A stretch of 64,000 nt of DNA from Russula earlei (taxonomy: Eukaryota > Basidiomycota > Agaricomycetes > Russulales > Russulaceae). Position 1 is the first letter of the stretch, and every line of letters begins with the position of its first letter. Below the pieces are notes generated by a model. That model did no database searches and was not told where the DNA came from. It saw only the letters and a list, made by a program, of their open reading frames with translations. This document shows positions 15,352-53,118 of the stretch, in pieces. The stretch is from contig JAGFNK010000210.1 in the NCBI GenBank assembly GCA_025769875.1, positions 1 through 64,000 on the forward strand. Direction: 5' to 3'. Both the position numbers and the translations under genes were made by a program.

Positions 15352-17043
15352 TCAGGTGTCCAAAAAATCCTCTTTCTCATCATTGCTGGCTTCTCCAGTC
15401 AGCATCTTGATGAATTCTTCTCTCTCTTCTTTGGAGAGGGCTTTAGCAGCCTCTGCTACTTTAGCAGTTGCGCTCTCCTCAATGATTTCGACAACGGAGG
15501 ATTCGGATGTGGTGTTGGTTACCTCTGCTGCGCGTGTGTGCATTGCTTCATGTTTCAGTTTTGTGGGGCAATCTCTGGCAAGGTGTCCTTGTTTCGAACA
15601 GTGGAAACACCTCCCTTCGGCATGGTGTTTTTCTTTGTTGGCTTCAGTGATTGCTTTGTGTGCTGCGCCAGTGCTTGTGTCCGTCGTGTTCGGGTCGCGA
15701 GGTGGTAGGCGTGCGCGTGGCACGATGGCATTGTTGGTGGCGTTGCTGCGTGTGCCCCAGGTGGAAAGGCGAGCCCAGGGGCGGTTTGGGTTTGTGTTGC
15801 AATTGTGCACGTTAGCGTGATTGGTGAGGACTGCGCGTTTACGCATCCAGATGCAATGTTGCTTCTGGGCACCGGAGATCCACTCTTGAAAGGTGGTTGG
15901 ATCTTCTTGACTAATAATTGCTTCGACTAGTGGTTTGGGGAGGCCACACATGAACAGGTGCATGACCATTGGGTCATCTGTGTGTAGAGATCCTTGTCGA
16001 GCTAACAACTCGAAGTTAGCTATATACTCATCCAAATTATTGTCCTTCATTTTAAGTTCGCGTAGTTGGTCTTGCGCGTGTTTGCATTTGGTGTAATCGG
16101 TAAATGCTCATTTGAATTGTTGCTCTATAGCTTGCCAGGCAGTGAGGCCAAAGGAAATTTCATCTGGGTCAAGCATGACCTTTTCGAGCCACTCGTCCAT
16201 TGCTTCGACCCAACTGTCGACGCGAGGTCCTTCCATTAACGATAGAAAGTAGGCACATTTCTTGATGGGGTGTTGAGCAATTTTACTGTCAAAATTCATT
16301 CGCATGAAGCATCGGAATGTGGTGAGGAATGTGTGAGTGCGCGCATGATCACTGTTGAATGCCTTCGGGGGCATGCCTTCGAGTTTGCCGTTGTCTGAGG
16401 GGCATGCATCGCGGTTGTAATGAGCAAAATTGTTGTAGTCATCAGGGTCTGGACTCGGAGGTCACCTTCTGTGTCCTCCAAAATCTTGGAACAAGGATGG
16501 GCGTGGGTATGCCTGCACCGTCCTGGATGACGCAAGTTGTTGAGGTATTTGCACTGGTGGTTCTTCTGGTTCGTCAGCCATGACGAGAAGTTGCGTTATG
16601 GTTTTGGGTTCTTGTTCCATGGGTTCGGCAGGTGTGGGTCCAGGGGTTGGGGCATGGGATGGATTCTTCAAGTTTGGGATTGGTTCTCCTGATTTGATAA
16701 GCTGTTCCATGTCAAGACCTTTGAGGGGATCAGAGGTTAGTCCAAGAGCCGGGCGTGCGACGTGATAAGCTTCGAAATAGTCTTCGCAGCGTCAAATTTC
16801 GAACCATACACTGTAGAGGGTTCCAAGGCCAACTTTGGCCTTCCTGTAATAAGTGTAGTATCTGGTCCAAGGTACACTGTTTACTCCTACTCTGAGGAAG
16901 TGAGCATTTTCTCTGAAGGTTTCAGGGACAAGTGTGTCGTCGAGGTCTGGGTTTAGCTTGAAGGGACATTTGAGTTTCTTTAGTCCCTCTTCTATAGGTT
17001 TTCCTTGTCCTTTGAACCTCCAGTCTCTAGCCATGGAAGTCAT
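15352..17043 (-). pseudogene. Element D gag
   Basis: From ATG at 17043 (MTSMARDWRF) the minus strand reads a pre-Gag region, a Pro/Glu linker (GEPIPNLKNPSHAPTPGPTP), then the Ty3-type Gag capsid helices (NFDSKIAQHPIKKCAYFLSLMEG; LDEYIANFELLARQGS). It ends with one CCHC knuckle, CFHCSKQGHLARDC, near 15600 and a charged tail ending at 15352. In-frame stops near 16792, 16465 and 16108 (TGA/TAA/TAG) break it. The pol frame begins after the stop with no obvious shared frame. Confidence 0.85.
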
Positions 17044-17123: not shown

Positions 17124-17618
17124 TGTCACCGACTGGGGGTGGTGTCGCTGACAAATCGGTTCACGTGCGAGGTGAGTGCAGCAAGTCGAGCAGGATGCTT
17201 AAGTCTCTGTAGATTTCAAGGATCTCGGAGACAATATTGCCAGAGCAAATATGTTCCATGGAGAGGGGAGGTTATGAATAAGTCTTCATGTTAGGAAGAC
17301 TTATGATTGAAGAAGATTTCAAATGATTTGCTTGATTGCTTGCAAGCCTACAAGTTCCGAAGCAGGAATCCAGTGATATTCACAGGAGAACAAGCTTAGG
17401 GCTTGTTCTCATCAAATGGCAGTCTTATATACATGTGAAGTACTATATCAAATAGTATTTGTGAGGCAGAGGTGAGGCGATCATACTGGGACATGCGGGA
17501 AGCATCTGGTACACACAAGACTTGTTAAGAGAGTCATAGGACACGTGGGAAACTCGAGACATGTCCAGGTAGGCTTATCCAGTTGCCGGTCCGATGTGAT
17601 TTACCGGTTCTTGTGACA
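17124..17618 (-). repeat. 5' LTR of element D
   Basis: 495 bp. The sense-strand TATA box TATATAAG is at 17431-17424 and the predicted transcription start near 17398. It differs from the left LTR mostly at CpG positions, indicating an old insertion. Confidence 0.92.
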
Positions 17619-18050
17619 TGCAGACGCAGACACAGATGCAGACGCAGACACAGATGCAGATGCAGATGCAGACACAGACACAGATGCAGACACAGATGCA
17701 GACGCAGATGCAGACACAGACACAGACACAGACACAGACACAGACACAGATGCACCTGTGTACCTCTCAGCACAGCTCAGCATGACAGCCACTAAGGTCA
17801 TGCAGCTCACCCACATGCTTGGGGATGTCCAGGAGCTTGTGATCTTGCATGGGCCAGCCTCAGGCCCCGCATGCAGCTTCAGTCTTGTGTGCGAGAACAT
17901 TGAGCTATGCATGTAGGGGCACAAAGGTGCGAAGAGTTGCTTGCCTCCAGATGTGAAGGTGCGATTTACCATTGAGGAGGCAGGCTCACCTGCTAGCTCT
18001 GACACCTCGGACATTTCCATATATGGTAGCTTACAAAGATGTGGTCATGT
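17619..18050 (+). pseudogene. 3' half of the host gene cut by element D
   Basis: The (Ala-Asp/Thr-Asp)n frame that broke off at 9374 continues here from 17620 to about 17752. It then reads APVYLSAQLSMTATKVMQL, GDVQELVILHGPASG and FSLVCENIELCM up to a TAG at 17914-17916. After the stop the same frame goes on as LPPDVKVRFTIEEAGSPASS, so the TAG is probably a mutation inside the gene, perhaps of a Tyr codon. Together with 8812-9374 this is a broken conserved fungal gene. Confidence 0.7.
17620..17752 (+). repeat. GCAGAC/ACAGAT hexanucleotide minisatellite in coding DNA
   Basis: About 22 tandem hexamers of the form (GCA/ACA)(GAC/GAT), coding alternating Ala/Thr and Asp. The left 50 bp of the same array lies at 9325-9374 on the other side of element D. 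Every unit keeps the reading frame. Confidence 0.9.
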
Positions 18051-24549: not shown

Positions 24550-25563
24550 CCTGAACTGAGCCTTCAGGGCATGCAGGGCCTCATATGGCTTCCACTTTGC
24601 AAGGTGAGGATTGATGTCTTCCATGACACTTCTTGCCTCTTCCACAGAATGACCTGCACAATATTCATCACCATACTCATTCTGCAGAAGCTTTAGTAAG
24701 ATAAGCCCAATTCCATCAATAATCTTGGGCATTGATCTGATAGTAGGCTTCCCTTTCTCTCTTGTAATTGTCACAGAGGGAATTGTAAGAGGGTTTGGGT
24801 TGGTGAGGATTGGTGCAGCCTGGTTTTCTAGTCCATAGATAAATACAATAAGTTGATACCCAAATACAAGATCACATGGAAATACTACCAGGGTCAAGTA
24901 CAAATGCAGTCAGGTAGACATTTGATGCCTGCTCATTTCCTATAAGCTGTGCAAACCAGGAATTTGCTATTGCACAAATCTTCTCCTTGAGTTCAATAGC
25001 ATACTTCAACTTTTCTTTCAGACTATCATCCTTGGTCAGGAGATCTTGAAGATGAGCCACAATTGCAAGCCAGTAGGTGTACATGTCTGCAGGATTGGTG
25101 TCCTTGGCTTCCAGACACTGGATTGCACAAGCAAATGGCATCAGAACAGCCCCAAGCTGCTTCAAATCCCTCTGAAGGCAAAAACATCCTCATTGTTGTC
25201 AAACAAGGTGTGAAGCATCTAGTTAAGACAATTTAAATATATGTGGCCTGATCTCAGATTGATGAGTTGGATTACTGCATTATCAATACCAAGGCCTGGG
25301 TTACGAATGATCTTCATGAACACTGGTATTCCCTGCACAACTGAGTCAAGTGACCAATAATAGATGGTCCCAAATCTTGTTTCTCCAACTGATTGGAGGC
25401 CACATTGTATATGTAGATCTTTACAAGCAACATCAAACCAGTCAAGTGTATAGGTTGAAAGGCCCATGAAAACCAAAAGGTCTCACAATTGAGAAACCAC
25501 CTGGACAAGATAACTTAACCTATTCATTCAGGGATCCAGGAATCCAGGATGGAAGATACCAGT
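24550..25563 (-). pseudogene. hAT/DUF659 transposase gene, middle to C-terminal part
   Basis: Minus-strand coding from the edge of element A: an LDWFDVACKDLHIQ segment followed by GLQSVGETRFGTIYYWSL (the conserved ETRFGT region of this hAT group) near 25390. Then come a long helical region with DTNPADMYTYWLAIVAHL (near 25090), LKEKICAIANSW (near 24960), TSD-like loss-of-frame points near 24880, and SVEEARSVMEDINPHLAKW (near 24610). It continues beyond the solo LTR at 23664-24544. Confidence 0.85.
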
Positions 25564-26170
25564 TGTAACGGCGTCGCGGCCGTTAGAGCGTTAGCTCAAG
25601 GTTCAGTGGGGCCAAGTCCCTGTGACTTGGTTCAAGGGTTCAGTGGGGCCGGCTCAAGGAGACCGGTTCAATGGTTTTAGCGTCTCAAGGCTGAGTCAGA
25701 CAATGACTCAGTCCGCAGACAGAGTTGATCTCCTGGTTTCACAGAAGAGGAGGACGATGAAAGAGAGGCAGAGGAGGAAGAGGAACACAAGGGTTCCTTG
25801 AGGTGTGCTTAGGTCAAGCAAGGTGTAGGCCAGCACAAGCAGAGTTGTGATTGAGAGAGGGTACAGGGCAAGGGATGCGACAGGAAATGGGACAAAGCTA
25901 AGCTTGGGGCATTCCCCAGCTTCTACAGGCGCTTAAATACTGTATGTAGCGAGGCTGTACAGTACTATAAGCAGAACAATAGATAAAGGTGAGCCAATAG
26001 CAAAGGTAACTCAACAATAGGTGAAACACAATAGGTGAAACACAATACATGAAACAGTAAGGGACCATCGACATCAAGGGATGAAACGGTAACCAAGAGA
26101 AAGAGGGTGGTAAAGGGGGAACAATAACAAGAGAGTAATGGGCGAACCGACAAGGGGGTAAATCACAACA
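25564..26170 (-). repeat. 3' LTR of element A
   Basis: 607 bp, TGTAACGGCGTCGCGG...AAATCACAACA on the plus strand; identical to the right LTR. Confidence 0.97.
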
Positions 26171-26192
26171 TCATGCCCCCCTCATGCTTAGT
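26171..26192 (-). promoter_or_regulatory. 3' polypurine tract of element A
   Basis: Sense strand AAGCATGAGGGGGGCATGA directly precedes the 3' LTR; the G6 run is the likely RNase H-resistant plus-strand primer. Confidence 0.7.
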
Positions 26193-26200
26193 TCTCCGAA

Positions 26201-27454
26201 CTAATCGGTCTCAGGACCCGACTCACGGAATTCATCGCCTTCGACTTCTGGCCACGCGCTCTGGGGTCCCATGGCTTTGGGGCAGAAACCCCTGTAACTC
26301 CGATGGGTCCTCCTGAGGATGCAATCCACTTGTCCGCTGCAATTAGTGTGCGGTTTGTTACAGTCCTTGTTCCAGTGCCCCCTGGTGTTGCAGTGTTTGC
26401 AGACATGTTGTCGCTTCTGAAGTTGATGACGCTGTGCTTTAGTCATTCGTGCGGGGGTGAGAGGGGTATTGGGGGTACTGGCGTCATCAGAGAACATTTG
26501 GGGGAAGTGGGAAGGTGACCCCATGGGAGCGTCGTTTTGGGACTGGTCGACAACGCGAGGAGGGAGGTACTGGAGAGGAGGGGTTAGGGAGAGAGGAGGG
26601 TGAATGGATGGTGTAGGGGAAGTGGATGACTCCTTCGAGTCCTCGATTTTGTCGTAGCTCCCTGCCAGTGAGTAGTACGGTCCAGTGTCGCGGGTGAGCC
26701 CTCCATCAGTCATCAAGTTATCGAGTTGATGGCGAACTCGGACGGAAGTGTTGTTGGCCCGAAGGCGACTGCGGATGGCGGCAGTCTCTTTAGTGTGGGA
26801 CTGGATTTCATGGAGTCGGTCAGCGAGCTGCCCTTGGAGGACGCTTAGAGCCCCTTGGATGGAGGCGCGCTTGCCCTCCAAGACTTTCAACTTGAAAGAG
26901 CTGGTGCGGAGACGGTAGACGTCGGCAAGAGCACCAGGGTCATGGAGGTTTTCGAGGGCTTGGGCAGCATCAAAATGGAAGGGGTGGTCCTCAATGAGGA
27001 GGCGGAGGTCAGAGGCAGAGACAGAGGGATGAGGGGCAGAGACAACGGGCCGAGCGATGAGCTTTTCCCCATAAGTGGGTTCTCCTCGACCCATAGTTCC
27101 TAGAAGCATGGGCTCGTCATTATATAAGGCGACACGTAAGTATGGTAATAGGCGCTTTCGCCCATTAACGTGAATGTAAAAAGGGGGAACATGCGTGTAA
27201 GGTTCGTAAACAAACCAAGGGGGGCCAGGATGGGTGGGGTCTGCTTGGGTTGGGGTTGGCGAGGGTGTTCCTTCTCGAATGGCGAGTGGGTTGAGGGTAG
27301 CGGCAAGGTCTTGGACCTCGGTTTCGTCTGGGACGATGAAGGTTCGTTGGTCGATGATATGCTGGATCACTTCGGGCGAGAGGGGTTCTTGTTTGATGGT
27401 GGGGGAAGGGGTAAGAATAGGTAGAGGGGATGAGTTAGAAACGGGGGACGACAT
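26201..27454 (-). other. Element A post-chromodomain module (possible internal start)
   Basis: The last 417 codons of pol, from an internal Met at 27454 (MSSPVSNSSPLPILTPSP). Ser/Pro-rich N-terminus, PWFVYEPYTHVPPFY region near residue 1350, a helical heptad-like stretch (LKVLEGKRASIQGALSVLQG) near 1480, and the zinc knuckle CKHCNTRGHWNKDC followed by a Cys/His-rich tail. The start word, length and ending match the separate modules of elements C and D, so it may be made as its own protein or released by the protease. Confidence 0.7.
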
Positions 27455-30400
27455 AGGAGTGTTGTAAGTAGAGGTAGCGTGTTCGTGGTGCCAGGCTGAC
27501 CACTCGGAGGGAGTGGGGGTATTTATGTAGGCTGATCGTATGATGTGGTTCCACACTAAATCTGTAAGTACCGCTCTTCGTACGGATAGATGAAACTCAG
27601 AAAAGCGGGGGTCCATCATAAGTAATTGAAATCCGCGGAAGTCACCAGGAGAAAGAATTCCAGAAAAGAGTTGTTCTCTGGCGGCTAAATCAAAAATTGT
27701 ATATCCGCGGTCGGGGATAGCGGGGTCGTTAACGGAATAAGAAGGGGGGTTACGTGAGTTAATTCGGGGGAGTAATGTACGTTGTTGTATCGTAAGTGTT
27801 TGGAATTGATGTTCTAAGTCGTTCAGACTTTCGTCAGAGTGATGGGATTCTGCGGGATCAGAGTCAGTGGTGGTCATGGTACGGAGTTTGGTGGGCTGTT
27901 GGAGGTGAAACATGGTGATGGCGTCTTGGGCGTTTTTAAGGTTTGAAAGAGGTTCCCAGGTGTCTTCTGCCGCGGAATATCCTTTCCACCGGACCCTGTA
28001 TTGGAGTCGGTTTCTATGGAGACGTTGAGCGGTAATCTTTTCGACTTCATATTCTCCCGAGATAAGGTCAGGTGGTGGCTCCGGGAAGTTTGGTCCATGT
28101 TCAGTTGTTTCTGTGACTGGAGATAAGAGGGAGGCATGAAACACGTTGTGGATGTTCCATTGGGGCGGTAACTGGAGTTGGTAAACAATGTGGGAGATTC
28201 GTTTGGTGATGGTAAAAGGGCCGAATCGTTTAGGGCGGAACTTATGAAACTGATGGGGAGTTTTTAGGTTAGTGCCTTCCAACCAAACCTTCTGTCCTTC
28301 CTCGAAGCCCTTGAATTTGGTTTCCTTGACCCAGTTATTCTGTGCCCTTCTCATTGCTTCTTGTGCTGATTCCCTCATATCTTTTAATGCTTGGAGTCGT
28401 TCTTGGATTCCGGGGAACTTGGACTTAAGCTGGGTGCCAAGCCCTTGAGGGTTAAACCCGATGAGGAGTTCGTAGGGGGTTTTTTTGGTGGTGGTAGACT
28501 TGTGGGCGTTAAAATGGTACTGGGCTATGGGGAGCCAGTGTGTCCATTCTTCCTGTTTCTCTCCTGTGTAGATACGCAGATACATTTCCAGGGTCTGGTT
28601 TGTCCTTTCAGATTGTCCATCAGTTTGAGGGTGGTAGGCAGTGCTTAAATTTTGGTTGATCCCGAGGATTCGGGAAACTTCCTTGAACAAGTCGGAGGTA
28701 AAGCGAGGGTCACGATCGGAAATGATCTTGGAGGGGACCCCAGTCCAAGGGAAGGCATGTCGTAAGAACAATTTGGCCATTGCTAAGGTCCCCATGTCCT
28801 TACGACATGGTATGAATATTGCCGCTTTGGTTGAGTCGTGGTCGGTGATGGTCATGATCGTGTTACACTCTTCTGACAATGGAAGGTCAACGATCCAGTC
28901 GATTGCTATGGTTTGGAACGGTTTCTGGAACTCAGGGGGAATCGGATAAATTGGGGGACGAGTTGGGTGTGTGGAAGTCTTGTTGGCTTGACAGGTGGCA
29001 CAGCCTCGAATGTAGTCCCTGATAAAGTAGGCCATCTTTGGCCACCAGAAGGATTCTTGAATTGAATATAGGGTTCGGGCGTTTCCTGTGTGCCCGCCAA
29101 GGATGCTGTCATGGTAGGTATGTAAAATTTTTCGCAAGAGGGGTTCTTGATATGGCACCACCAATTTTCCACCTTTGAATAGTGCGTCTTCTTCTTCTTG
29201 GAGACCGTGTTTGACCTTCCACATGAGGAGATCTGACTTTCTTTTTCTTTGTTCGGTTAGTACTTGTTCGTAAAGGTCCTCAGTGTGGAGCGTGCGAATA
29301 AAAAGTTTGTCAGGGAGTGCTGTGACGTTCTGGTTGTCTCCTGACCCATCATTGTGGTCAGGTCGTCGTGAGAGAGGGTCCGCGCGATTGGAGACTCCGG
29401 GTTTGTGGTGGATTTCGAAGTGGTAATCCGCGAGTGTTGAGATGTACCCAGCAATCCTTCGGTTGATTTTGTGGGGGAGCCGGTAGTGAGCCAGGTTAGC
29501 GTGGTCTGTGAAAATTTTGATGGGGTGTTTAGTCCCGACTAATAGGTATCGCCAGTGTTGGAGTGCAAGGATCAGAGCTAGGAACTCCCTATCCCAGACT
29601 GGGTAGTTCCTTTCTGCTTCGTTGAACGCGTGTGACATATTTCCGATCATTTTCCTTTTTCCCCTTTGATCCTTTTGGAAGAGGATAGCTCCGGTGGCAA
29701 ACTGTGAGGCATCGGTTTCTAATTCGTATGGGAGGTCGGGGTTGGCAGTGTAAAGTTCAGGGTCGTCGCAGACCGCTGCTATCAAGGTTTCTAGGGCTGT
29801 GGTTGCTTCCGGAGTCCAGAGAAAGGGGGTGCCTTTCTTGATTGTAGAAAAAATGGGGCGGGCTATTTTTGCGAAGTCTCGGATAAATGGCCGTTGGTAA
29901 TTGAGGGCGCCCATGATTTGTTGTACCTGTTTCAGATTGTTGGGGGGTCTCGGCCAGCTTTTGAGGCCATTCATTTTGACAGGATCGATTTTGAGGGTCC
30001 CTTGATTAATTCGGAAACCCAGGAAGTCAATTTCTTCTTGTTCGAAGGCACATTTAGACGCTTTTAAGAAATAGGAGTCCCTTTCGAGAAGGTCAAGGAA
30101 TTCGTGTGTAATTTGTTGGTGGAGGTGTTCTTCTCCTGAGTTCGTGGCTATTGCCACGTCATCTAGGTAGTTGCAAGTGTTTTCGGGGTACTTTAGAAGC
30201 CAGGGTCGGAGGGTGTGGTTCATTGCTCGTTGAAAAGCTGCTGGGGCGTTGGTAAAGCCGAAGCCCATTACCATGGGAATGAAGGTGCCAAATTGGGTTT
30301 TGAAGGCACCCTTGTGTCGGTCTTCTGGGTGGATCAGGATGTTGTTGTAGCCAGCTCTGACATCGAATTTGCTAAAGGTGGTTTTGCCCCTTAATTTGTG

Positions 30401-31270
30401 TAATTGTTCTTCCATGTTTGGCAGGGCATGATAATCTGGAACGGTGGCGTTATTGAGTTTTCGGTAGTCCACTACCATCCTTGGGGCAGTACCGTCTTTC
30501 TTCTGAACAAAGAAAACGGGGGATACAAAATCTGAAACACCGTCTTTGATGAAACCTTTGGCCAGGTCTTCTTGTATTTGTCTTGATAGTTCTTGTTTTT
30601 CGTTTAGGGGGAGTGGGTAAGTTCGACAGTCAAGAAATTTGGGGGCGTCTGGTTTCAGGGTGATTCTGAAGTCGAGCTCTCCTCGGCTGGGTGGGAGTCG
30701 TTTGGCTGCTTCTTCTGAAAAAACCTTCTGATGTCGTAAGTATTCCGGGGGAATGGTGGTTGTTCTTATTTGTGCAAGTCGGACTTTGGGTGGATTTACT
30801 ATGGATACGGGGGTGAGAAGAACCCCTAGGTGGTTCCTTAGGCGGCCAGTGCTCCAATTGACGTGGGGATTTAACGCCCTCAAAAAGGGATATCCAAGGA
30901 TCATTCTATCTTCTCCCAAGTTGGTAACATAGAAGGTGAGGAGTCGGGTGGTGGGTCCGTGACGTACGGTCATGTGGGTGTAATGGGTTAGTGCTCCTCC
31001 TTGATTGTTGGTGCCGTCCACATTAATGATGGGTCTGGGGGTTCTGAGGGTTCGGAGTGGGATTTGTAATTTTCCCACGATTCCTTGGCTGATGAAGTTT
31101 TCTGTTGCTCCGCTATCTAGGAGTGCTTGACCAGTCTTTCCATTTGTCGTGATCATAAAAGGTACTTTCATTGAGTTTTCCTTATGTTGGACAATGGTAT
31201 CTATTTGGGCCTTAGTACCGACTGTTGTACCTTGGCCTAGAGAAAATCCTCTTTGAGGATGAGATCCCAA
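26201..31270 (-). CDS. pol: Element A pol polyprotein with chromodomain and C-terminal zinc-knuckle module
   Basis: One open frame of 1689 codons. Protease: DSG at residues 52-54 and LGYPFL at 125-130. RT: KFDVRAGYNN near 301 and catalytic YLDD at 368-371. RNase H: Asp520, the WDREFLAL helix near 560, TDH near 589. Integrase zinc finger: His720, His727, Cys757, Cys760. Integrase core: Asp791, Asp852, Glu888 (35 residues between the last two). Chromodomain: about 1073-1122, with aromatic cage candidates Tyr1074, Trp1095 and Trp1105. The extra 560 residues end in a CX2CX4HX4C knuckle at 1624-1637. The frame starts 34 nt inside the end of gag in the -1 phase, so expression probably needs a -1 shift near the gag stop, or reinitiation at the ATG at 31270. 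All catalytic residues are intact. Confidence 0.96.
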   Translation of the reverse strand: MGSHPQRGFSLGQGTTVGTKAQIDTIVQHKENSMKVPFMITTNGKTGQALLDSGATENFISQGIVGKLQIPLRTLRTPRPIINVDGTNNQGGALTHYTHMTVRHGPTTRLLTFYVTNLGEDRMILGYPFLRALNPHVNWSTGRLRNHLGVLLTPVSIVNPPKVRLAQIRTTTIPPEYLRHQKVFSEEAAKRLPPSRGELDFRITLKPDAPKFLDCRTYPLPLNEKQELSRQIQEDLAKGFIKDGVSDFVSPVFFVQKKDGTAPRMVVDYRKLNNATVPDYHALPNMEEQLHKLRGKTTFSKFDVRAGYNNILIHPEDRHKGAFKTQFGTFIPMVMGFGFTNAPAAFQRAMNHTLRPWLLKYPENTCNYLDDVAIATNSGEEHLHQQITHEFLDLLERDSYFLKASKCAFEQEEIDFLGFRINQGTLKIDPVKMNGLKSWPRPPNNLKQVQQIMGALNYQRPFIRDFAKIARPIFSTIKKGTPFLWTPEATTALETLIAAVCDDPELYTANPDLPYELETDASQFATGAILFQKDQRGKRKMIGNMSHAFNEAERNYPVWDREFLALILALQHWRYLLVGTKHPIKIFTDHANLAHYRLPHKINRRIAGYISTLADYHFEIHHKPGVSNRADPLSRRPDHNDGSGDNQNVTALPDKLFIRTLHTEDLYEQVLTEQRKRKSDLLMWKVKHGLQEEEDALFKGGKLVVPYQEPLLRKILHTYHDSILGGHTGNARTLYSIQESFWWPKMAYFIRDYIRGCATCQANKTSTHPTRPPIYPIPPEFQKPFQTIAIDWIVDLPLSEECNTIMTITDHDSTKAAIFIPCRKDMGTLAMAKLFLRHAFPWTGVPSKIISDRDPRFTSDLFKEVSRILGINQNLSTAYHPQTDGQSERTNQTLEMYLRIYTGEKQEEWTHWLPIAQYHFNAHKSTTTKKTPYELLIGFNPQGLGTQLKSKFPGIQERLQALKDMRESAQEAMRRAQNNWVKETKFKGFEEGQKVWLEGTNLKTPHQFHKFRPKRFGPFTITKRISHIVYQLQLPPQWNIHNVFHASLLSPVTETTEHGPNFPEPPPDLISGEYEVEKITAQRLHRNRLQYRVRWKGYSAAEDTWEPLSNLKNAQDAITMFHLQQPTKLRTMTTTDSDPAESHHSDESLNDLEHQFQTLTIQQRTLLPRINSRNPPSYSVNDPAIPDRGYTIFDLAAREQLFSGILSPGDFRGFQLLMMDPRFSEFHLSVRRAVLTDLVWNHIIRSAYINTPTPSEWSAWHHEHATSTYNTPMSSPVSNSSPLPILTPSPTIKQEPLSPEVIQHIIDQRTFIVPDETEVQDLAATLNPLAIREGTPSPTPTQADPTHPGPPWFVYEPYTHVPPFYIHVNGRKRLLPYLRVALYNDEPMLLGTMGRGEPTYGEKLIARPVVSAPHPSVSASDLRLLIEDHPFHFDAAQALENLHDPGALADVYRLRTSSFKLKVLEGKRASIQGALSVLQGQLADRLHEIQSHTKETAAIRSRLRANNTSVRVRHQLDNLMTDGGLTRDTGPYYSLAGSYDKIEDSKESSTSPTPSIHPPLSLTPPLQYLPPRVVDQSQNDAPMGSPSHFPQMFSDDASTPNTPLTPARMTKAQRHQLQKRQHVCKHCNTRGHWNKDCNKPHTNCSGQVDCILRRTHRSYRGFCPKAMGPQSAWPEVEGDEFRESGPETD

Positions 31271-32079
31271 AGCTTGGCCCTATCTTCTGCCGGTAAGGTC
31301 TTCATGCGGGCCACCATAGTGGAGGCTTCTTCTTCTTTTGGTGGTTCTGAGGTTGGTTCAGCGGTACGTGCTTTGGAAGTAGTGGGGGTAGTATTCTTGG
31401 GGCACTCCCGACTAAGGTGGCCTTTCTCTCGACAACGGAAGCAACGTCCTTCTTTGGCCAATTGTTTCCTCTCTTCTTCAGTGAGTTTTTTGAAGTTGGA
31501 CTTGGCGGCGTCTACTTGCATCCGATCAGGGTGATGGGACCTGTGTTCCGAAGGGGGGTGTGTGGTTTTTCCTTTAAGTTTCTCTCTGATGGTGATGAAA
31601 CGGCGATGTTGTCTTCTGGCTTCCTCCTTCCATTCTTGAAGGGTGGTAGGCCAGACGTCCCTGTTTAGGATTGCGCGGTAGAGTCCGATTTTTAGACCAT
31701 TTTTGAAGCTTTCTATAGCGATTACGTCCGTTTCTGGCCACCCTGTTTTATTCAGCAGTTGTTCGAAGGTGGAAATGTAATCGTCAAGGGATTCCTTCAT
31801 TGTATGCTTGGCGAGAGCCGCTTGGGCGTCCTCTTTCTCCGCAGTGTTAGTGAACTTGAATGTAAAGTCCGTAACAAAGTCATTCCATAATGCTTCGTTC
31901 ATTCTGTCGATGGGGTTCTGGGCCCTGTTTACCTTTTCCCTTAGTGCGGTTGCTTGTGAATTGACCCATTCTTCAACCTTTTCCCCTTGAATGTAGGAAA
32001 GAGCCAGCATTGTTCGTTTAAAAGGGGAGATCATTACTGCCTTATCATCATTGAGGCCCCAGAATAGATTGAATTCCAT
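31237..32079 (-). CDS. gag: Element A gag (capsid and nucleocapsid part)
   Basis: 281 codons from MEFNLFWGLNDDKAV: Ty3-type Gag capsid helices (FKRTMLALSYIQGEKVEEWV; DDYISTFEQLLNKTGW; GLYRAILNRDVWPTTLQEW), then one CX2CX4HX4C knuckle, CFRCREKGHLSREC near 31430, and a charged tail ending at 31237. The frame is open further upstream to about 32205, where it meets the pre-Gag frame after a one-base shift in a C-rich run. It overlaps pol by 34 nt. Confidence 0.93.
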   Translation of the reverse strand: MEFNLFWGLNDDKAVMISPFKRTMLALSYIQGEKVEEWVNSQATALREKVNRAQNPIDRMNEALWNDFVTDFTFKFTNTAEKEDAQAALAKHTMKESLDDYISTFEQLLNKTGWPETDVIAIESFKNGLKIGLYRAILNRDVWPTTLQEWKEEARRQHRRFITIREKLKGKTTHPPSEHRSHHPDRMQVDAAKSNFKKLTEEERKQLAKEGRCFRCREKGHLSRECPKNTTPTTSKARTAEPTSEPPKEEEASTMVARMKTLPAEDRAKLWDLILKEDFL

Positions 32080-32146
32080 GATAAATCTTTTTGTTTTGTT
32101 CCTTTCCCCTGTGAAGGCAGTGGGTTCTTTTCCGCTGAGGGACCCA

Positions 32147-32740
32147 TTAGTGCCTTGTGGTACTGGAGCGGCTGCCTGAGGGGGTGGGACGACGACTGGA
32201 GGGGGCCTGAGCGGCTATCTGGGGGGCCTGAGCGGCCATCTGGGGGGGTTGTACAGCGACTTGAGGTTGGGCTGCCATATCAGGTTCTGGGGGGTTCTGT
32301 GGGTCGATTTCTAGGGTTTCAATGGGTTCTTGGTTTTCAAGGGGGTCCTCTGGTTCTAGTGCAGGGGATTCGAAGGGTGTCTGAGTTTCAACAGTGTTTT
32401 CTGGTTCAGGGGGGTTGCCTTCTGTAGAAGAGGCTTCTGATTCTGATGGTGGTTCGTAGAGAGGGTCGTTTTCCCTCCAGTAGCCTAATCCAAGGCTGTT
32501 TCTGAGGAGTTCTAGGTCTAGGTGAGTGTAGAGTTGTCCTCTCCTAAGTTGTAGTTCGAACCAACGGTTGTTGATGAATTCAACTGGTAGTTCTTCACCG
32601 TTTTCAGTGGTGATGTAACAAAGGAAAGTGTGAAAGCTGTCCCAAGTGGCAGTTCCTACCACGTGTTTGGGAAGGTCTGGGGATGGTCTAGGTTGAACAC
32701 GGACCCAACGATTCGATGGTAGTTCAAGGTTGATCTCCAG
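32147..32740 (-). CDS. Element A pre-Gag domain in an AUG-free reading frame
   Basis: The minus strand is open from the primer site to 32147 and codes LPSNRWVRVQPRPSPDLPKH, VGTATWDSF, ELPVEFINNRWFELQL and LRNSLGLGYW, then a Glu/Pro-rich linker. No ATG in any frame occurs between the predicted transcript start (33106) and the ATG at 32278. An in-frame CTG at 32740-32738 has A at -3 and G at +4. Element C encodes a related domain (LPEH.TG.A.W; INGRWYKL), also without ATG. A +1 shift near 32205 separates this frame from gag. Confidence 0.75.
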   Translation of the reverse strand: MEINLELPSNRWVRVQPRPSPDLPKHVVGTATWDSFHTFLCYITTENGEELPVEFINNRWFELQLRRGQLYTHLDLELLRNSLGLGYWRENDPLYEPPSESEASSTEGNPPEPENTVETQTPFESPALEPEDPLENQEPIETLEIDPQNPPEPDMAAQPQVAVQPPQMAAQAPQIAAQAPSSRRPTPSGSRSSTTRH

Positions 32741-32752
32741 AATGGAGTAGAG

Positions 32753-32763
32753 AAGCTTAGCTT
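32753..32763 (-). promoter_or_regulatory. Primer-binding site of element A, self-complementary to mRNA 5' end
   Basis: Sense AAGCTAAGCTT, one base from the 5' LTR, is the exact complement of AAGCTTAGCTT at 33106-33096. The latter begins about 33 nt downstream of the TATA-like TATTTAA (33140-33134). Confidence 0.75.
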
Positions 32764-32764
32764 G

Positions 32765-33371
32765 TGTAACGGCGTCGCGGCCGTTAGAGCGTTAGCTCAA
32801 GGTTCAGTGGGGCCAAGTCCCTGTGACTTGGTTCAAGGGTTCAGTGGGGCCGGCTCAAGGAGACCGGTTCAATGGTTTTAGCGTCTCAAGGCTGAGTCAG
32901 ACAATGACTCAGTCCGCAGACAGAGTTGATCTCCTGGTTTCACAGAAGAGGAGGACGATGAAAGAGAGGCAGAGGAGGAAGAGGAACACAAGGGTTCCTT
33001 GAGGTGTGCTTAGGTCAAGCAAGGTGTAGGCCAGCACAAGCAGAGTTGTGATTGAGAGAGGGTACAGGGCAAGGGATGCGACAGGAAATGGGACAAAGCT
33101 AAGCTTGGGGCATTCCCCAGCTTCTACAGGCGCTTAAATACTGTATGTAGCGAGGCTGTACAGTACTATAAGCAGAACAATAGATAAAGGTGAGCCAATA
33201 GCAAAGGTAACTCAACAATAGGTGAAACACAATAGGTGAAACACAATACATGAAACAGTAAGGGACCATCGACATCAAGGGATGAAACGGTAACCAAGAG
33301 AAAGAGGGTGGTAAAGGGGGAACAATAACAAGAGAGTAATGGGCGAACCGACAAGGGGGTAAATCACAACA
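32765..33371 (-). repeat. 5' LTR of element A with TATA box
   Basis: 607 bp. Promoter reading minus: TATTTAAG at about 33140-33133, predicted start AAGCTTAGC at 33106. The 340-nt R-U5 part holds no ATG. Confidence 0.95.
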
Positions 33372-33376
33372 CCAGT

Positions 33377-36822: not shown

Positions 36823-36827
36823 ACCAC

Positions 36828-37511
36828 TGTTATGAACCAAGGCCAGGTCCTGGCTATATATTGTCCTATTTCACTCAAGAGAGACCTCTCTCACTTTGCA
36901 TTGCCAACTCCCTTCTGTTTCATGGGCTATCCCTCCTGTGGTGCAAGATATTGCTATTGCAAAGGCACTATAGCATGGCTGACTGAGCAACTCCACAGTG
37001 ACCTCATAGGCTCACTAAGCGCTCCACAGTGACATCATAATGATGTCATTGCTCCACAATGATCAGTAATGCACTCAGTAAGCCTGAAACTTGACACAAG
37101 TGAGTTTATGCCTCTGTAGTCCTATTGGATGGTACCAAAGGGTCTAGAATAGTTCCAGTCCTTTGTAATCGACCCTGTACACTGTATATAAGCCCCAATG
37201 TAGCATGGCAGTCGTCGGACTGTCCATTTGTGATACTCTCATCTTCCTGGGTGCTCCCCTGCAACCACTCAGTTTAAAGACTCCTCTCATCCCCAAGGTA
37301 CTCTTCAACGACCGCCTTGTTTAAAGCCCCTTGCTACACTGGCCTCTAGCCTTCACCTCTGTCTCTTGCAACACCTACCAGTCTCCATCTGGTACCTCCT
37401 CATCATTTGGCTCATCCTCCTGTTCAATGCCACCTTTGCCACGTACCATCTGTTCTGACCCTTGCCCACCTGCTCCTGAGTCCTTAGTGATCAGCAGTAC
37501 ATGTCTTGACA
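36828..37511 (+). mobile_element. Solo LTR family F (F2), TSD ACCAC
   Basis: 684 bp, flanked by ACCAC at 36823-36827 and 37512-37516. Relative to F1 it lacks an internal block of about 145 bp between GGCACTATA and GCATGGCTGAC. It splits element B's third module. Confidence 0.92.
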
Positions 37512-46073: not shown

Positions 46074-47285
46074 TCAAGCTGGGGGAAAATCCACGCCGTT
46101 ATTGACCATGGCAGTAGCCCATGAGCAACATTGTTCTTCAGAATATCCAGACATTATAGCCACAACTTCCTCAGGAGATGGTCCTTCATTATAAGTTTGT
46201 GTCTCCTGTTGAGTAGGTTGTTGGACTGGTTGATCATCAGGGGGATTTTCCTGATAATATTCGGTTGGTTGTTCATCAGTTTGAGCTAAACGAACATGGG
46301 TGTCGACCTGTTCTTCAGGGTAATACAGTTCCTGGTATTCATCTGGTTCTATAACTTCAACCAGACGTGTTTTCATAGGAACTGATTTGAAGGTGGTCGA
46401 CTTATTAGGACAATTGCATGCCACATGTCCTTGTTTAGAGCAAAAGAAGCAACGACCTTCGACTTGATGTTGTTTCTTCTCTTGCTCAGTAGTGGCTGCT
46501 CTAGCGCAGTCAACGTCCATTGGAACAACTTGATTGTTGCTCCTAGGAATAAATTGGCCAGTAGGGTTCCTTGGTACAAAGGTAGGATTGACCCTAGGAG
46601 GCGGTCCAGGAGGGGGACGGAATGTAGTGTTGGTAGGACAGAAGTTAAGGAATTGTTGGGGATTACGCGCGATATTGCGTATATCTCCCATATAGCTTTG
46701 CCTCATGGCATATTTGTTGTGTTCCTTTCTAGCCGCTTCAGTCCATTCCGTGAAATTGGTAGGTAGGGTTTCCCTTAATAAGACGTTGTTGAGGAGTGGC
46801 CTACTAAGACCTCTAGCAAAATAGTCTAGAGTTCCGTTTGCATTTAGGTCGTATCCTGCGTCGTTAGCAAGGTTGGTAAAGGTGGCAATATAAGAGTCCA
46901 GGTCAGGTCCTTGTTGCCTTAGAACAGCTAGTTTATTGAACGCGTTTTGCCTTTTATTAGTGTCGGTGAAGGCATTATTAAACGCAGTTCTAAAGTCATT
47001 CCATAGAGCTTCGTTGGTCCTGAGTACTCCAAGAGTGTTGACACTATTATTGACTGTTTCCAGTTGAGTGTCAACCCAGTGGTCCACATTAGGGCCTCTT
47101 ATAAAGGATAGGCAAGCATTAACTCGTCTATAAGGATTGTTGAAGAGGGAGTTTTCATCATTCATATTGCGAAAGATGGCAAACTCTCTCATGAATTTGG
47201 AGGATTGGGAGTGGTCTCCATCAAAGATAGATGGTGGGTTTCCCCTGACCGCTCTGTTAGAAGGGATTGGTACTATGGCAGCCAT
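46074..47285 (-). CDS. gag: Element C gag
   Basis: 403 codons from the first ATG of the internal region: MAAIVPIPSNRAVRGNPPSIF, Ty3-type capsid helices (YRRVNACLSFIRGPNVDHWV; DSYIATFTNLANDAGYD; LSRPLLNNVLLRETLPTNF), a Pro-rich linker (FRPPPGPPPRVNP), CFFCSKQGHVACNC near 46430, and an acidic, Gln-rich tail (DQPVQQPTQQETQ). This frame is uninterrupted. Confidence 0.92.
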   Translation of the reverse strand: MAAIVPIPSNRAVRGNPPSIFDGDHSQSSKFMREFAIFRNMNDENSLFNNPYRRVNACLSFIRGPNVDHWVDTQLETVNNSVNTLGVLRTNEALWNDFRTAFNNAFTDTNKRQNAFNKLAVLRQQGPDLDSYIATFTNLANDAGYDLNANGTLDYFARGLSRPLLNNVLLRETLPTNFTEWTEAARKEHNKYAMRQSYMGDIRNIARNPQQFLNFCPTNTTFRPPPGPPPRVNPTFVPRNPTGQFIPRSNNQVVPMDVDCARAATTEQEKKQHQVEGRCFFCSKQGHVACNCPNKSTTFKSVPMKTRLVEVIEPDEYQELYYPEEQVDTHVRLAQTDEQPTEYYQENPPDDQPVQQPTQQETQTYNEGPSPEEVVAIMSGYSEEQCCSWATAMVNNGVDFPPA

Positions 47286-47900
47286 AGCTGGAGGAGGTGG
47301 AGGTGGAGTGGGAGGTGAAGGTGGAGTAGGAGGGGTAGGAGGTCTAGGAGTGGGTACGTGAGGGATACCAAAGATCCTTTGTGGTACAGGAAGTGGTTCG
47401 GGTGCTGGCGCGGCTTCTACTGCTAGATGTATAGGAGATAACCTAGGTGAAGGTTGTCTGGTTCAAGGTCGAGAGGAAGGTTGTTGGGATTCTTCTGCCG
47501 AAGATAAACAATGTCTTCCAAGAGAAGGTGAAGGTTGATATTGAAAGAGTTGGTACTGGGGGTCTGATTGATCCCAAGTTCCTAAATCGTGTTCTTCGTT
47601 GTCGAGAACAAGGCCTTTGTGAGTGGCGTATTCAAGGTGAAGTCCGACTTCTCGTCTATCAAGTTTATACCAACGTCCGTTGATAACTTCGATACGGTGG
47701 TAAAGGTTTTCGATGCGGAGGTAATATCCTACTTCAGGTTCAGTGGGGTGCCAAAAGGCTTTACCAGTGATATGTTCAGGTAGGTTGTCTTGATTACGTC
47801 GAGTGACGGTTCAGTGTTGAAGAGGGTTAGATGAGGAAGCTGGTTCGATAGAGGGTTCGGGGATAGCAAGAGTATTCAAGGTAGAAGCCGTGGTGAAACG
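47286..47900 (-). pseudogene. Element C pre-Gag domain, in frame with gag and AUG-free
   Basis: Upstream of the gag ATG the same frame codes DNLPEHITGKAFWHP near 47770, YYLRIENLYHRIEVINGRWYKL near 47680, then a Pro/Ser linker. Two TGA codons (near 47817 and 47462) interrupt it, both explainable as CGA to TGA. No ATG occurs in any frame from 47915 to the gag start. Confidence 0.65.
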
Positions 47901-47901: not shown

Positions 47902-47913
47902 TAAGCTTGGTCT
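47902..47913 (-). promoter_or_regulatory. Primer-binding site of element C, self-complementary to mRNA 5' end
   Basis: Sense AGACCAAGCTTA, two bases inside the 5' LTR, is the exact complement of TAAGCTTGGTCT at 48406-48395. Confidence 0.75.
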
Positions 47914-47915: not shown

Positions 47916-48762
47916 TGTCACGGTAACTAGCCGTGTCAGTTCACAAGTGAAAAACAAGTTGATGATAATGAGGTGTTCAAGAAACGGGCTGGTTCCCGTG
48001 TGTAATGAGTAAGGATCCCTGCAGCAGTCGAAGTGTTTTATGCTAAACAGGTTATGGCCAATAGACCCTTCCTAGTACGACTCGGTCCATTGAGAAGCTA
48101 GGGTAAGTTTATAATGGGATAGACTAGGGCTGGTTCCACTAGCTATATGCATTCAAGTCCATCGGGGACCTTGAACAATGCAGAGAGAGTAGAGGAAGGT
48201 AGGTCTTAAAGGAGGAGAGCTCTTCTCAGGGGAGTGAAGAGAGACTCTTAGGAAAGGAAGGGAAAGGCAAAGAGTAGATGGTAGATGGTGTGTGAAGAGT
48301 TGATGAAATGGAGAGGTGGATGTGGTTTGAGGATTAGGAGCGAAGTGGGTTGCAGGCAAATATGTTTGGACAAGAGTAGGTTGGATTCTACAAGAGACCA
48401 AGCTTAGGGCTTTGGTCACAAAGTACTGCGCTTTGACTGTGCTACTAGTATAGTAGGAGTCATAATAAGTAGGAGTCATAGGAATGAGGCCACGAATGAG
48501 TCAGAACCAAGTAACTGTGCTGCACAGTAGGTGCGCAGCATTGCACAGTCGAAACTAAGAAGTAAATATAAATGGAAAGAGAACCAAACAAAGGGAAAGT
48601 AACAGCAATCCAGTGTTACCTGGACGTGTATGGATCACATGATAACACAAAAGGGATCACAAGACATAAGAGATCACAAGACCAGTAAGTAAAGGGATGT
48701 ATGCAAGCAAGCAGTCCATAGCAAGAGGTAAGAAGTAAACATAAAAGGAAAATGGTGTAACA
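47916..48762 (-). repeat. 5' LTR of element C (TATA-less short form)
   Basis: 847 bp. It lacks 35 bp between CAAAGTACTG and CGCTTTGAC that hold TATATATAAG in the other LTR, so the element's own promoter looks disabled or altered. R-U5 holds a short upstream frame of seven codons (ATGGACTTGAAT...TAG). Confidence 0.9.
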
Positions 48763-48767
48763 ATATC

Positions 48768-51457
48768 TCAACAGTTTCTCAACAGATTGCCTTGAAACTT
48801 TGACAGTAGAACCTTATATACTGTATCTATGTGCAGCTAAAATATGGGAGCCTAATATTTAGTTCTTGAAATGTCAATTTTCAGGTGCTGACATGAGTGC
48901 AAAACTTTGAACTGCCATATCTCAACTGTTTCTGAATCAATTGACTTGGAACTTCGACAGTGGGATCTCATGTACTGTATCTAGGTGCAGCCCAAGAGTT
49001 GGGGTCTAATTCTCTGTTCTTGAAGTTTCAATTTTTGGGTGCAATCTGAGTGTGAAATTTCGAACTGCCATATCTCAACCATTTCTCAATGGATTGCCTT
49101 GAAACTTGGACAGTGGGATCTCATATAATGTGTCTAGGTGCAGCCAAAGAGTTGGTGTCTAATTATCAGTTCTTGAAGTTTCAATTTTTGGGTGCCCATC
49201 TGCGTGCAATTTTTCGAACTGTCATATCTCAACCATTTCTTGATGGATTGCCTTGAAACTTGGACAGTAGAACCTCATGTACTGTATCCAGAGGCAGCCA
49301 AATAATTGGTTTCACTTGTTGAATTTTCACATTTTGGGGTGCTGACCCCAAGCATGATAAAATTACATTATCCCTACAGCTGAGCACATGATATGATACA
49401 ACTATTTATGACATAGCACGCAAGAAGGGCACGTTCATGGGACCAGACAAGGACTGACGGAAGAGCAATAAGACAAAATCGAAACGATGACGCGAGGCGT
49501 GCGTCGAGGCAGTGATTGCGATCATGCATGAATGGGCGAGGCGAGGCGATGGTGGGCTGCGAGCCCTCAAGTACGGCGGTGGCGAACAATGATGAATGAT
49601 GGGGGGGTGGCTCAGTAGTCGGAGCAACACAGTGAGTGACAGTGTGCTGCTGTTGGGCACCTTTTGGCATTTCTCGTGCATGACGCGGCATTTGCACACT
49701 ACGATCATCACATTTCACACTGCTTACCCCTCTCACACTTCAAAAAATGCGCTTTTTATTATGCGAGCCATCAGGAAATGTCTTCCACATGTGGTGCATC
49801 ATACTTACCTGAAACCAGGAAATTGCTGTTGACCCTTGGACATGAAAGCTTGCTCCATTCACCTGGCTCATCCACAACATAACCCTCAAAATAGAGCTGG
49901 AGGTTCCCTTCACTGACCACGGGAAGCTTTCCCTGGTCCTGTCCAACAATGGAAGAGGCGAACGCGAGTGGTGGCATTCAAGTTTCGAACTGTCGGTGGC
50001 CGGCCACGTGTGAGCCAGCAGGGCGGTGACTGGAGGAAGGATGAGTTTTGTACATATGGCAGGGAGAAATAACATTGCATACCTTCATCGTTTTGTCAGC
50101 TTTTCATTTTGCTCTCCCACACAGTGTACCACAGTATCGTATGTGTGTGGTCTCAAGCGAGACCTGGAGCTTGCACATCACAGGTTCCCTCCTCTGCAGC
50201 GAGTTCAGATGCGCGCCAACGGGCATGTGCAAGCAGGCATCTCACATAAAGGATAAAGAGTGGATCTTCCGCTGACAAGATATCTGGCATGCAGAAATTG
50301 AGGACCCACATCATCTCCTCGTGCCACCACTTGTCACGGCCCTGCGTCCATGGAACTTCGTTCCCCATGCGCCTAAGAACAAGGATGTGCTCAACATGCA
50401 GGCAGACCTTGAGTGCTGAATCGACTATTGCTTTGGTTGCAATAGTCTTCCCACCGCAACGCCCTTCATTGGCAATAAGGATGACACAGCTCTGGCAGTC
50501 ATTGATACGGTCATGATGCGCCTCTGCAGAGAAGCCAGCGAACACAACAGAGTGGACGGCACCGATGAGCGCTACACACGAGGAGGGCAGCGACCGCTTG
50601 CCATGCCATAGGAAGGTAGATAGAGACGGCATTGCCTTAATTGATGCCGAGAGATTTTCAGTACATTGGCAACACTAGAAGTTTTGTGTGGCAGTTCAGC
50701 ATAGGGATCTGTTGGGCTCATCGGCTTCATAAATGATAGCGGTCTGGGAGAGATGAGCGATCAGACACGGAGATACCCGGAAATGGCTCTTGATCAACCA
50801 TAATCTATGACGGTACGGACCTTGTTGGGATGTTTGAATGCCTAACGGTCTACACTGTTGTACGACACATTCAGACCTACAGGGATGAGGCGACATGAGG
50901 GGTGGCGTGGGGCATATTACTTATGTCAGCAGCGTCTCTGGCACTGGCGGTGTGGAGGCTGTTTCTGCTCCTCCTGAGGTGGCAAGTGACTAAGCTCAGG
51001 TCCAGGGCCTTCTTGGACAATGTGTGTTGCATGAGACTAAAACGACAGTTGGGGTTGAGACCAAGATGGTGGCATGGACGAGTTCAGGCGATGGCTGCAA
51101 GTGAGACTGAAGTGGTGGAAGAAGCCAGACGAAGCTGACATTGTAGGGGCTGGCTGGACCAAAGTAACGGCAGCTAGAGGGGACGACGAGGAGGCTGAGA
51201 CTGCGGCAACTGGGACTGAGACAGCAAGGTGGCACATGTGGCCAACAGAATGGCCAACAGAACTGAAACGACTAGACGGCAGACGAAGCAGGTGCAGATG
51301 GATGAGAGGCAGCAGTGGGCAGGACAGGGGCCGTGATGGCGATGACTTGGAAAGGCTACAAATGGAGCAGCTGATGAAGCTATGACAGGGGTTGATGGTG
51401 GATGAGGGCAGAGAGGACTAGGGGTGGTGGTAATTGGGGAGTCCAACTCCGACTCCA
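48768..51457. repeat. Left arm of palindrome E
   Basis: Mirror of 51638-54328 (mirror coordinates sum to about 103096). 48768-49350 is made of degenerate tandem units of about 150 bp, each with CATATCTCAAC..TTTCT, CCTTGAAACTT.GACAG and AATTTTTGGGTGC words. Together with 39472-39545 it forms the whole arm. Confidence 0.92.
50246..50877 (-). pseudogene. Captured acetyl-CoA synthetase gene fragment (left arm)
   Basis: Identical mirror copy of 52219-52850; see that entry. Confidence 0.82.
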
Positions 51458-51578
51458 AGATGGTCACTTTTCGCTCACTTACATCTGTATACATGGAGAT
51501 TTCCTCCGCAGACATGGTTGTGTTGAGACGAATGATGATCCATTGCACTTCTTCTGAGACTGCTTTGCCTTTAGCCAT
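51458..51578 (-). pseudogene. Mariner-type transposase N-terminus in the palindrome loop
   Basis: ATG at 51578 followed by about 40 codons: MAKGKAVSEEVQWIIIRLN, then SAEEISMYTDVSERKV. This is the first helix-turn-helix of a fungal Tc1/mariner-like transposase family, recalled by motif. It is truncated where the arm begins. It is the only part of E present once. Confidence 0.65.
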
Positions 51579-52850: not shown

Positions 52851-53118
52851 GTGAGATGCCTGCTTGCACATGCCCGTTGGCGCGCATCTGAACTCGCTGC
52901 AGAGGAGGGAACCTGTGATGTGCAAGCTCCAGGTCTCGCTTGAGACCACACACATACGATACTGTGGTACACTGTGTGGGAGAGCAAAATGAAAAGCTGA
53001 CAAAACGATGAAGGTATGCAATGTTATTTCTCCCTGCCATATGTACAAAACTCATCCTTCCTCCAGTCACCGCCCTGCTGGCTCACACGTGGCCGGCCAC
53101 CGACAGTTCGAAACTTGA

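Follow-up and report, generated by a model that had tools for sequence, protein, structure and literature searches.

An AUG-free leader and a probable non-AUG start of a long Gag in two putatively self-priming Ty3-type retrotransposon families of Russula earlei

Introduction

How might a retrotransposon translate a protein domain that is encoded upstream of the first AUG of its genomic RNA? The question is raised by a 64,000-nt stretch of Russula earlei DNA (contig JAGFNK010000210.1), here called the window. It carries two elements, A and C, both on the minus strand, and in each of them a frame devoid of ATG, here called pre-Gag, lies between the primer-binding site (PBS) and the first ATG of gag. 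An earlier note, made from the window alone, proposed that a long Gag starts at a non-AUG codon and a short Gag at the first AUG, a reading that the genomic copies of both elements and their metagenomic relatives support at the level of sequence. Gag proteins extended from a non-AUG codon are already known in murine leukaemia virus (MLV) and in the mammalian gene PEG10, and a CTG start is known in CCDC8.

Two putatively self-priming elements

Elements A and C are Ty3-type retrotransposons that putatively prime their own reverse transcription, as the PBS of each is complementary to the 5′ end of its own RNA (Table 1). In A, a Gag with a CCHC motif is followed by protease, reverse transcriptase (RT), RNase H and integrase between long terminal repeats (LTRs), the order that defines Ty3/gypsy elements, and a chromodomain (PF00385, E 1e-13, Pol-frame residues 1077-1125) places A among the chromoviruses. 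Exact complementarity between PBS and 5′ end, over 11 nt in A and 12 nt in C, groups both with the self-priming (Tf1/sushi-like) elements by PBS. The inner end of the LTR of A was set by means of the PBS, whose first nucleotide is 32763; the raw repeat match extends to 32752. The protein pieces of C include Gag, RNase H and integrase, with CCHC in one piece, and its Pol is broken; protease and RT were not found among the pieces scanned, nor a chromodomain in the six pieces scanned.

The 11-nt self-priming match at the LTR edge of A likely fixes the 5′ end of its genomic RNA at 33106. This transcript start, predicted in the earlier note, is well supported by the PBS complement, by a TATA-like TATTTAAG that lies, by reading, about 30 nt upstream, and by the presence of the 5′ 11-mer in all copies. 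For A, 48 genome matches were obtained, and all 40 main places were used, eight side pieces being left out; for C, 31 of the 40 genome places found were analysed. Protein families mark this genome as fungal: the fungal transcription-factor domain has 34 matches in it and hydrophobin two, and neither family occurs in 14 control genomes. In A, Gag and Pol share about 40 nt (31237-31279) that are read in different frames, as for programmed frameshifting; inspection by eye revealed no standard slippery heptamer.

Table 1. Coordinates of the features of elements A and C in the window
Feature	Position	Strand	Basis
A 5′ LTR	32764..33374	(-)	Direct repeat, spacing 7201, 98.6% identical
A 3′ LTR	about 25563-26173	(-)	Direct-repeat partner of 5′ LTR
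A predicted transcript 5′ end, self-primer, 11 nt	33096..33106	(-)	Exact complement of PBS; 11-mer in 40/40 copies
A putative self-priming PBS	32753..32763	(-)	Complement of 5′ 11-mer; kept in 39/40 copies
A AUG-free leader plus pre-Gag, 828 nt	32279..33106	(-)	0 ATG in any frame
A spacer, hypervariable, 2-3 nt	32750..32752	(-)	14 different sequences among 40 copies
A proposed CTG start of long Gag	32738..32740	(-)	ATTCTGG in 39/40 copies, 7/8 distant loci
A pre-Gag domain, beta-rich in model	32411..32740	(-)	Shared-variant selection and predicted structure
A Pro/Glu-rich linker, pre-Gag domain to short Gag	32279..32410	(-)	Shared-variant omega-like 0.34
A first ATG, proposed short-Gag start	32276..32278	(-)	40/40 copies; context mostly GATATGG
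A Gag capsid and zinc knuckle	31237..32214	(-)	PF03732 4.3e-7, PF00098 1.3e-5
A Pol (protease, RT, RNase H, integrase, chromodomain)	26201..31279	(-)	Stop-to-stop frame; overlaps Gag, other frame
C predicted transcript 5′ end, self-primer, 12 nt	48395..48406	(-)	Kept in 29/31 copies
C putative self-priming PBS	47902..47913	(-)	Exact 12-nt complement; kept in 29/31 copies
C proposed ACG start of long Gag, ACCACGG	47889..47891	(-)	ACG 17, ATG 10, ACA 3, GTG 1 of 31 copies
C pre-Gag	47286..47891	(-)	Shared-variant selection; in frame with gag ATG in 21/31 copies
C first ATG, proposed short-Gag start, GCTATGG	47283..47285	(-)	31/31 copies

Absence of ATG from the leaders

Between the predicted transcript start of A and the ATG at 32278, no ATG occurs in any frame over 828 nt, as had been noted before. 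The accompanying expectation of about 13 presumed uniform composition and was too high, since base composition alone predicts 8.8 and dinucleotide shuffles 5.7; the shortage itself stands, none of 2000 dinucleotide shuffles being as low. The antisense of the same stretch holds 12 ATGs. Taken apart, the two segments of the leader are each weak evidence by themselves: for R-U5 alone, 156 (A) and 94-110 (C) of 2000 dinucleotide shuffles are as low, and for pre-Gag alone 26 (A) and 84-107 (C). When synonymous shuffling keeps the protein fixed, the absence of ATG from pre-Gag is not significant in A (271-292 of 2000 as low), and in C 27-76 of 2000 are as low (copies L070 and L073; L064 was left out, being out of frame).

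Across the genome, 21 of the 40 A copies are ATG-free before the gag ATG. Five of 31 C copies lack ATG over the whole leader of about 1.1 kb; the same five retain most CpG, and three of them have pre-Gag out of frame. For the C copies L064, L070 and L073, which have no ATG in about 1.1 kb, only 6, 3 and 3 of 2000 dinucleotide shuffles, respectively, are as low. In the other copies, leader ATGs mostly fall where the majority triplet reads ACG, in 35 of 38 cases for A and 116 of 142 for C, so both leaders were probably ATG-free when active, dead copies gaining ATG by CpG decay. The window copy of C illustrates the point. Its stretch from 47915 to 47285 is ATG-free, as first reported, but its R-U5 carries three ATGs that had gone unmentioned (48162, 48152 and 48090), which we ascribe to CpG decay.

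Avoidance of upstream AUGs alone would explain why no ATG precedes 32278, and R-U5 is ATG-free as well. The leader could then lack AUG merely so that ribosomes reach the short-Gag AUG, pre-Gag being a relict of coding sequence that is no longer translated. Loss of translation would, however, end both selection on pre-Gag and retention of its domain, and it is on these two grounds that we hold a relict to be highly improbable. Variants that have spread are mostly silent in one frame only, to a degree reached in none of 2000 neutral simulations in either A or C, and the domain is retained among relatives that are 30-38% identical.

Frame-specific selection on pre-Gag

Variants shared by at least three copies were taken to have been spread by an active lineage, and rarer ones to be more often post-insertion decay; CpG changes were excluded. 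The shared variants of pre-Gag comprise 43 silent and 21 replacement changes among the 40 copies of A, against a neutral expectation of 19.4 and 42.6, and 25 silent and 15 replacement changes among the 31 copies of C, against 12.2 and 26.6; the simulations above (0/2000 each) refer to these counts. A low dN/dS in this frame, which the earlier note had put forward as one check on its idea, is thereby borne out on genome copies, with omega-like ratios of 0.22 (A) and 0.28 (C). For the pre-Gag domain of A alone, the shared non-CpG variants number 30 silent and 8 replacement (omega-like 0.14), and the linker, constrained among shared variants (Table 1), has a ratio of 1.51 for rare ones. The other two frames of pre-Gag show the opposite bias among shared variants (ratios 1.5-2.4), and R-U5 shows no clear bias (0.69 in A, 1.25 in C). 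Rare pre-Gag variants also tilt towards silent changes, less so (0.59 in A, 0.51 in C), and the division into spread and decay is therefore not clean. Judged from shared variants, pre-Gag is under frame-specific purifying selection in both elements, which rules out a frame that is open by chance.

Pre-Gag continues without a stop into Gag, for no fewer than 339 codons beyond the short-Gag ATG, in 16 of the 40 A copies; in three of these (L022, L023 and L026) the open frame reaches the limit of the sequence examined and not a stop. In C, start codon and gag ATG share one frame in 21 of 31 copies and, counted on this condition, seven of 31 are fully open (six with ACG, one with ATG). The stops in the 21 frame-keeping C copies are likewise 21 in number, and every one is a TGA where the majority reads CGA, as CpG decay would produce. 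The window copies themselves are imperfect witnesses. From the primer site onward, the leader of A is an open frame, as had been described, but that frame is lost after the short-Gag ATG with a stop at 32147, and the capsid lies in a different one; the Gag at 31237..32214 is out of frame with pre-Gag in this copy and in some others. Likewise, the domain of C does lie in frame with gag, but the window copy has two in-frame TGA codons, at 47813 and 47465.

A bounded start region beside the primer-binding site

Directly after the spacer of A comes a nearly invariant start block, TACTCCATTCTGGAGATC (32749-32732). The spacer, which separates this block from the PBS and is mostly pyrimidine, breaks the frame; because its length varies, nothing upstream stands in a fixed frame with pre-Gag. 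In copies with a 2-nt spacer, a TAA inside the PBS closes the frame; five of the 16 open copies have a spacer of that length. Eight distant loci (L086-L093, 161 nt each) have, by eye, spacers of 3-5 nt. The spacer could record non-templated nucleotides which RT adds on arriving at the capped 5′ end of the self-primer; no hypervariable spacer is seen 3′ of the PBS of C.

Within the start block lies the CTG at 32740 to which the earlier note had pointed. Its A at -3 and G at +4 are confirmed, and the context ATTCTGG recurs in 39 of 40 copies; the exceptions to CTG are a TTG in one of 40 copies and its absence from one of the eight distant loci. Two further near-cognate codons, ATT at 32743, the codon before CTG, and ATC at 32734, two codons after it, are possible alternative starts. 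In C, the ACG in its ACCACGG context was confirmed just after the primer site, at 47891, and shares the frame of the gag ATG at 47285. The PBS ends in overlap with a stop codon in that frame (TAA in 29/31 copies, TGA in 1/31), and three codons separate this stop from the ACG. The distance from PBS to start codon is 11-12 nt in all 40 copies of A and 10-11 nt in all 31 of C. At the other end of the extension, every one of the 71 copies of the two elements retains the short-Gag ATG.

The ATG found at the start position of 10 C copies, one of which belongs to the seven fully open ones, bears on ordinary ATG starts, an outcome that the earlier note had named as counting against its idea. Such starts do occur, but they are absent from the 12 copies that retain most CpG: these least decayed copies have ACG in 11 cases, ACA in one and ATG in none, and ATG is thereby ruled out as the original start of C. 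The ATG and ACA (3 copies) at this position follow the pattern expected from decay of ACG. Of the features that mark a non-AUG-extended Gag, both elements have a near-cognate in-frame codon, a strong context and coding selection on the extension.

Could splicing nevertheless supply an AUG? Short introns are frequent in fungal genes, and the CTGGAG that follows a pyrimidine-rich stretch could, by reading, resemble a weak 3′ splice site. That pre-Gag receives an ordinary AUG from a spliced or alternative transcript is, however, highly improbable. No ATG is available between transcript start and pre-Gag, and in the window copies of A and C no GT-AG pair 40-400 nt apart creates a junction with an in-frame ATG, so that this check, also foreseen in the earlier note, leaves a spliced leader without a candidate junction in these copies. 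Moreover, the 5′ end of the genomic RNA is fixed by the self-priming match, transcripts from U3 or host DNA being the possible exception.

The start block of A can also form a small hairpin, CUCCA-UUC-UGGAG, adjoining the PBS, and its constancy may thus partly serve reverse transcription. Carried further, the block, with its near-constant ATTCTGG, might be kept for reverse transcription or packaging through this hairpin, long Gag arising from another codon or by internal entry. This we judge very unlikely: the sequence of C differs at this place and once more holds a near-cognate codon whose context is strong, and the proteins of relatives start at or near this column. Folding about 120 nt downstream of the start codon gave no sign of a stimulating hairpin, the z scores of -0.96 and -0.94 for A and -1.82 for C being unremarkable.

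Ribosomes might, finally, reach the long-Gag start by shunting past the leader instead of scanning it. Minimum-energy folds pair the 5′ end with the PBS in both window leaders; in A the mostly pyrimidine spacer comes next, and the start lies 10-12 nt on. A duplex at the cap should, however, impede ribosome loading, and the part that is skipped need not be ATG-free, yet it is. A comparable layout is described in excerpts of a study of rice tungro bacilliform virus (RTBV), whose ORF I starts at an AUU just behind the basal helix that closes the leader, after a pyrimidine (UUUCU) tract (PMC3291615). The likeness to A and C thus lies in a non-AUG start behind a helix. In the same excerpts the RTBV shunt needs a short ORF ahead of the helix (PMC3291615). 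In A and C the 5′ pairing leaves no space for such an ORF, and the leader is AUG-free. Shunting is, in our estimation, unlikely, and initiation by scanning is the preferred reading.

Relatives in environmental DNA

A protein search with the open frame of A copy L010 scored 7,992 candidates and found 176 relatives, of which 120 are listed; among those listed, 87 reach the N-terminus by a motif test. The relatives that are 30-38% identical to A (21 aligned) start at or near the same column, one of them later. Among the 87 listed relatives, 16, all from JGI, have V as the N-terminal residue (VAS or VAG), implying GTG as the codon. In the other 71 it is M, which is ambiguous as M cannot separate ATG from GTG or TTG; some of the M-starting relatives may have a true ATG start. 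As regards ordinary ATG starts, these relatives hence answer in part: the 16 V starts favour a non-AUG codon, but the 71 M starts leave the matter ambiguous. The other nine of the 25 listed JGI proteins start further in, most of them at or near the internal Met.

Met is scarce in the pre-Gag of the 87 listed relatives (12 of 14,253 residues) compared with their Gag (983 of 32,575), the cut between the two being placed slightly before the short-Gag Met. In 11 clusters formed at 70% from the listed relatives, the counts are 0 of 1,696 and 109 of 4,122. The short-Gag Met itself is retained in 46 of 50 aligned rows. A second start reached by leaky scanning would require such a stretch, in which Met is avoided until one conserved Met, and the same dual start is probably used by many relatives in environmental DNA, as far as their protein sequences indicate. 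No DNA of relatives outside the Russula earlei genome was found in the viral and genome contig collections searched.

A predicted domain without a known fold

The extension ahead of the short-Gag ATG comprises 154 codons in A and about 200 in C. AlphaFold2 models the first ~90 residues of A pre-Gag as beta-rich, with block pLDDT of about 77-91, that is, with fair to good confidence. The model of a relative also has the beta-rich domain, after which come a long linker of low confidence and a helical capsid part. Structural searches with pre-Gag gave no match above noise (Foldseek against PDB and viral models; VIA-align 2), a PDB sequence search gave one match only, at E 0.48, and Pfam gave none in the window frame or in the N-terminal part of five relatives. 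As modelled, pre-Gag would be a beta domain without a known fold, and it may act in particle assembly, RNA selection or targeting, for example.

Discussion

Taken together, the sequences make it quite likely that in A and C a weak non-AUG start gives a long Gag, with leaky scanning to the first AUG giving a short one. Ribosomes would scan from the cap along the AUG-free leader, and some would initiate at a weak non-AUG codon 10-12 nt past the PBS, CTG in A, ACG in C and apparently GTG in some relatives, to yield a long Gag that carries the N-terminal beta domain. The remaining ribosomes would cross the AUG-free pre-Gag to the first AUG, in good context, and initiation there would yield a short Gag consisting of capsid and nucleocapsid. 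Two Gag starts in one frame on one genomic RNA would in this way produce two proteins and, with most ribosomes passing the weak start, long Gag would be the minor component. What the sequences show is a leader without AUG, selection specific to one frame of pre-Gag, a start region closed off upstream, a second start that does not vary and a scarcity of Met in the pre-Gag of relatives, and the observation is stronger than first noted. From these sequences we infer the production of both products, the near-cognate codon that is used, the product ratio and the leaky-scanning route.

The comparison with MLV glyco-Gag that accompanied the original proposal is apt in one respect and fails in another. 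Excerpts of PMC3542737 describe an in-frame CUG upstream of the Gag AUG that gives rise to an N-terminally extended Gag, and this start-codon layout is shared by A and C. Glyco-Gag has a signal peptide, whereas the extension of A and C is modelled as a beta domain: no hydrophobic stretch was found, and in none of 88 N-termini does any 15-residue stretch of the first 60 residues average as much as 1.6 on the Kyte-Doolittle scale, so that by hydropathy of these 88 sequences a glyco-Gag-type signal peptide is absent.

PEG10 is a mammalian gene from a sushi-ichi-type Ty3 Gag. It resembles A and C in combining an upstream in-frame non-AUG start with an AUG start; in excerpts of PMC2800197, mutagenesis shows that translation begins at two codons, the AUG and an in-frame CUG that precedes it by 102 nt. 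PEG10 differs in being a single host gene with a 34-residue extension, whereas A and C are multicopy families with an extension of 154 or about 200 codons that has its own predicted domain; their leader is AUG-free, and the proposed start lies near the primer site. When the modelled whole Gag of relative P0003 was searched with Foldseek, the best matches were PEG10 capsid C-terminal chains (7lga, probability 1.00, E 0.023), to which the capsid part of this relative would thus be closest, by fold only and at that E value. CCDC8, a PNMA-family gene from Metaviridae Gag, likewise starts at an upstream conserved CTG that completes its N-terminal domain, according to excerpts of PMC11011659. It differs from A and C in being a domesticated mammalian gene whose domain is a putative RNA-binding one (excerpts of PMC11011659).

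The self-priming chromoviruses Tf1/sushi and Tcn1 share with A and C a PBS that complements their own RNA 5′ end and with A a chromodomain, as given in literature excerpts; they differ from A and C in that the excerpts searched yielded no non-AUG Gag start for them. More widely, a limited literature search that covered parts of PMC5009743, PMC6317226, PMC2864245, PMC4600332 and PMC10085805, among others, found no report of a fungal element or chromovirus whose Gag starts at a non-AUG codon. What would set A and C apart from the known cases is thus an extension with its own modelled domain and without a hydrophobic signal, in fungal retrotransposons. A bolder reading, which we regard as rather doubtful, takes the pairing of a non-AUG long Gag with an AUG short Gag to be ancient and common to self-priming chromoviruses. 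The long-Gag start would lie at a set distance of 10-12 nt from the self-primer site, so that the priming duplex could choose between translation of an RNA into long Gag and its reverse transcription, and the paired CUG and AUG of PEG10 would be a domesticated remnant of this design.

If the proposed dual start is real, gene callers that demand an ATG trim about 150-200 residues from Gag in a group of fungal retrotransposons and, with them, overlook a predicted domain that has no Pfam or PDB match. A retrotransposon case would also join the extended Gags of one retrovirus and of the domesticated PEG10 and CCDC8, and whether these two genes inherited their odd start codons would become testable. 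CpG decay is misleading in this setting, as older dead copies acquire ATGs that mask a non-AUG start.

Other features of the window

A degenerate Ty3-type element lies at 14306-16407; its Gag is 25-31% alike to the Gag of the metagenomic relatives, and no pre-Gag match was found at this element. A 2.7-kb inverted repeat (48763-51465 and 51631-54333) has arms that are 99% complementary and 165 nt apart, and is either an assembly artefact or a real palindrome. A further repeat is present in four copies (13501-14333, 36825-37511, 58935-59766 and 61932-62672), which are 72-99% alike over several stretches. Lastly, a short-period array of CAGACG/CAGATG occupies 17600-17773, and a smaller array lies at 9315-9398.
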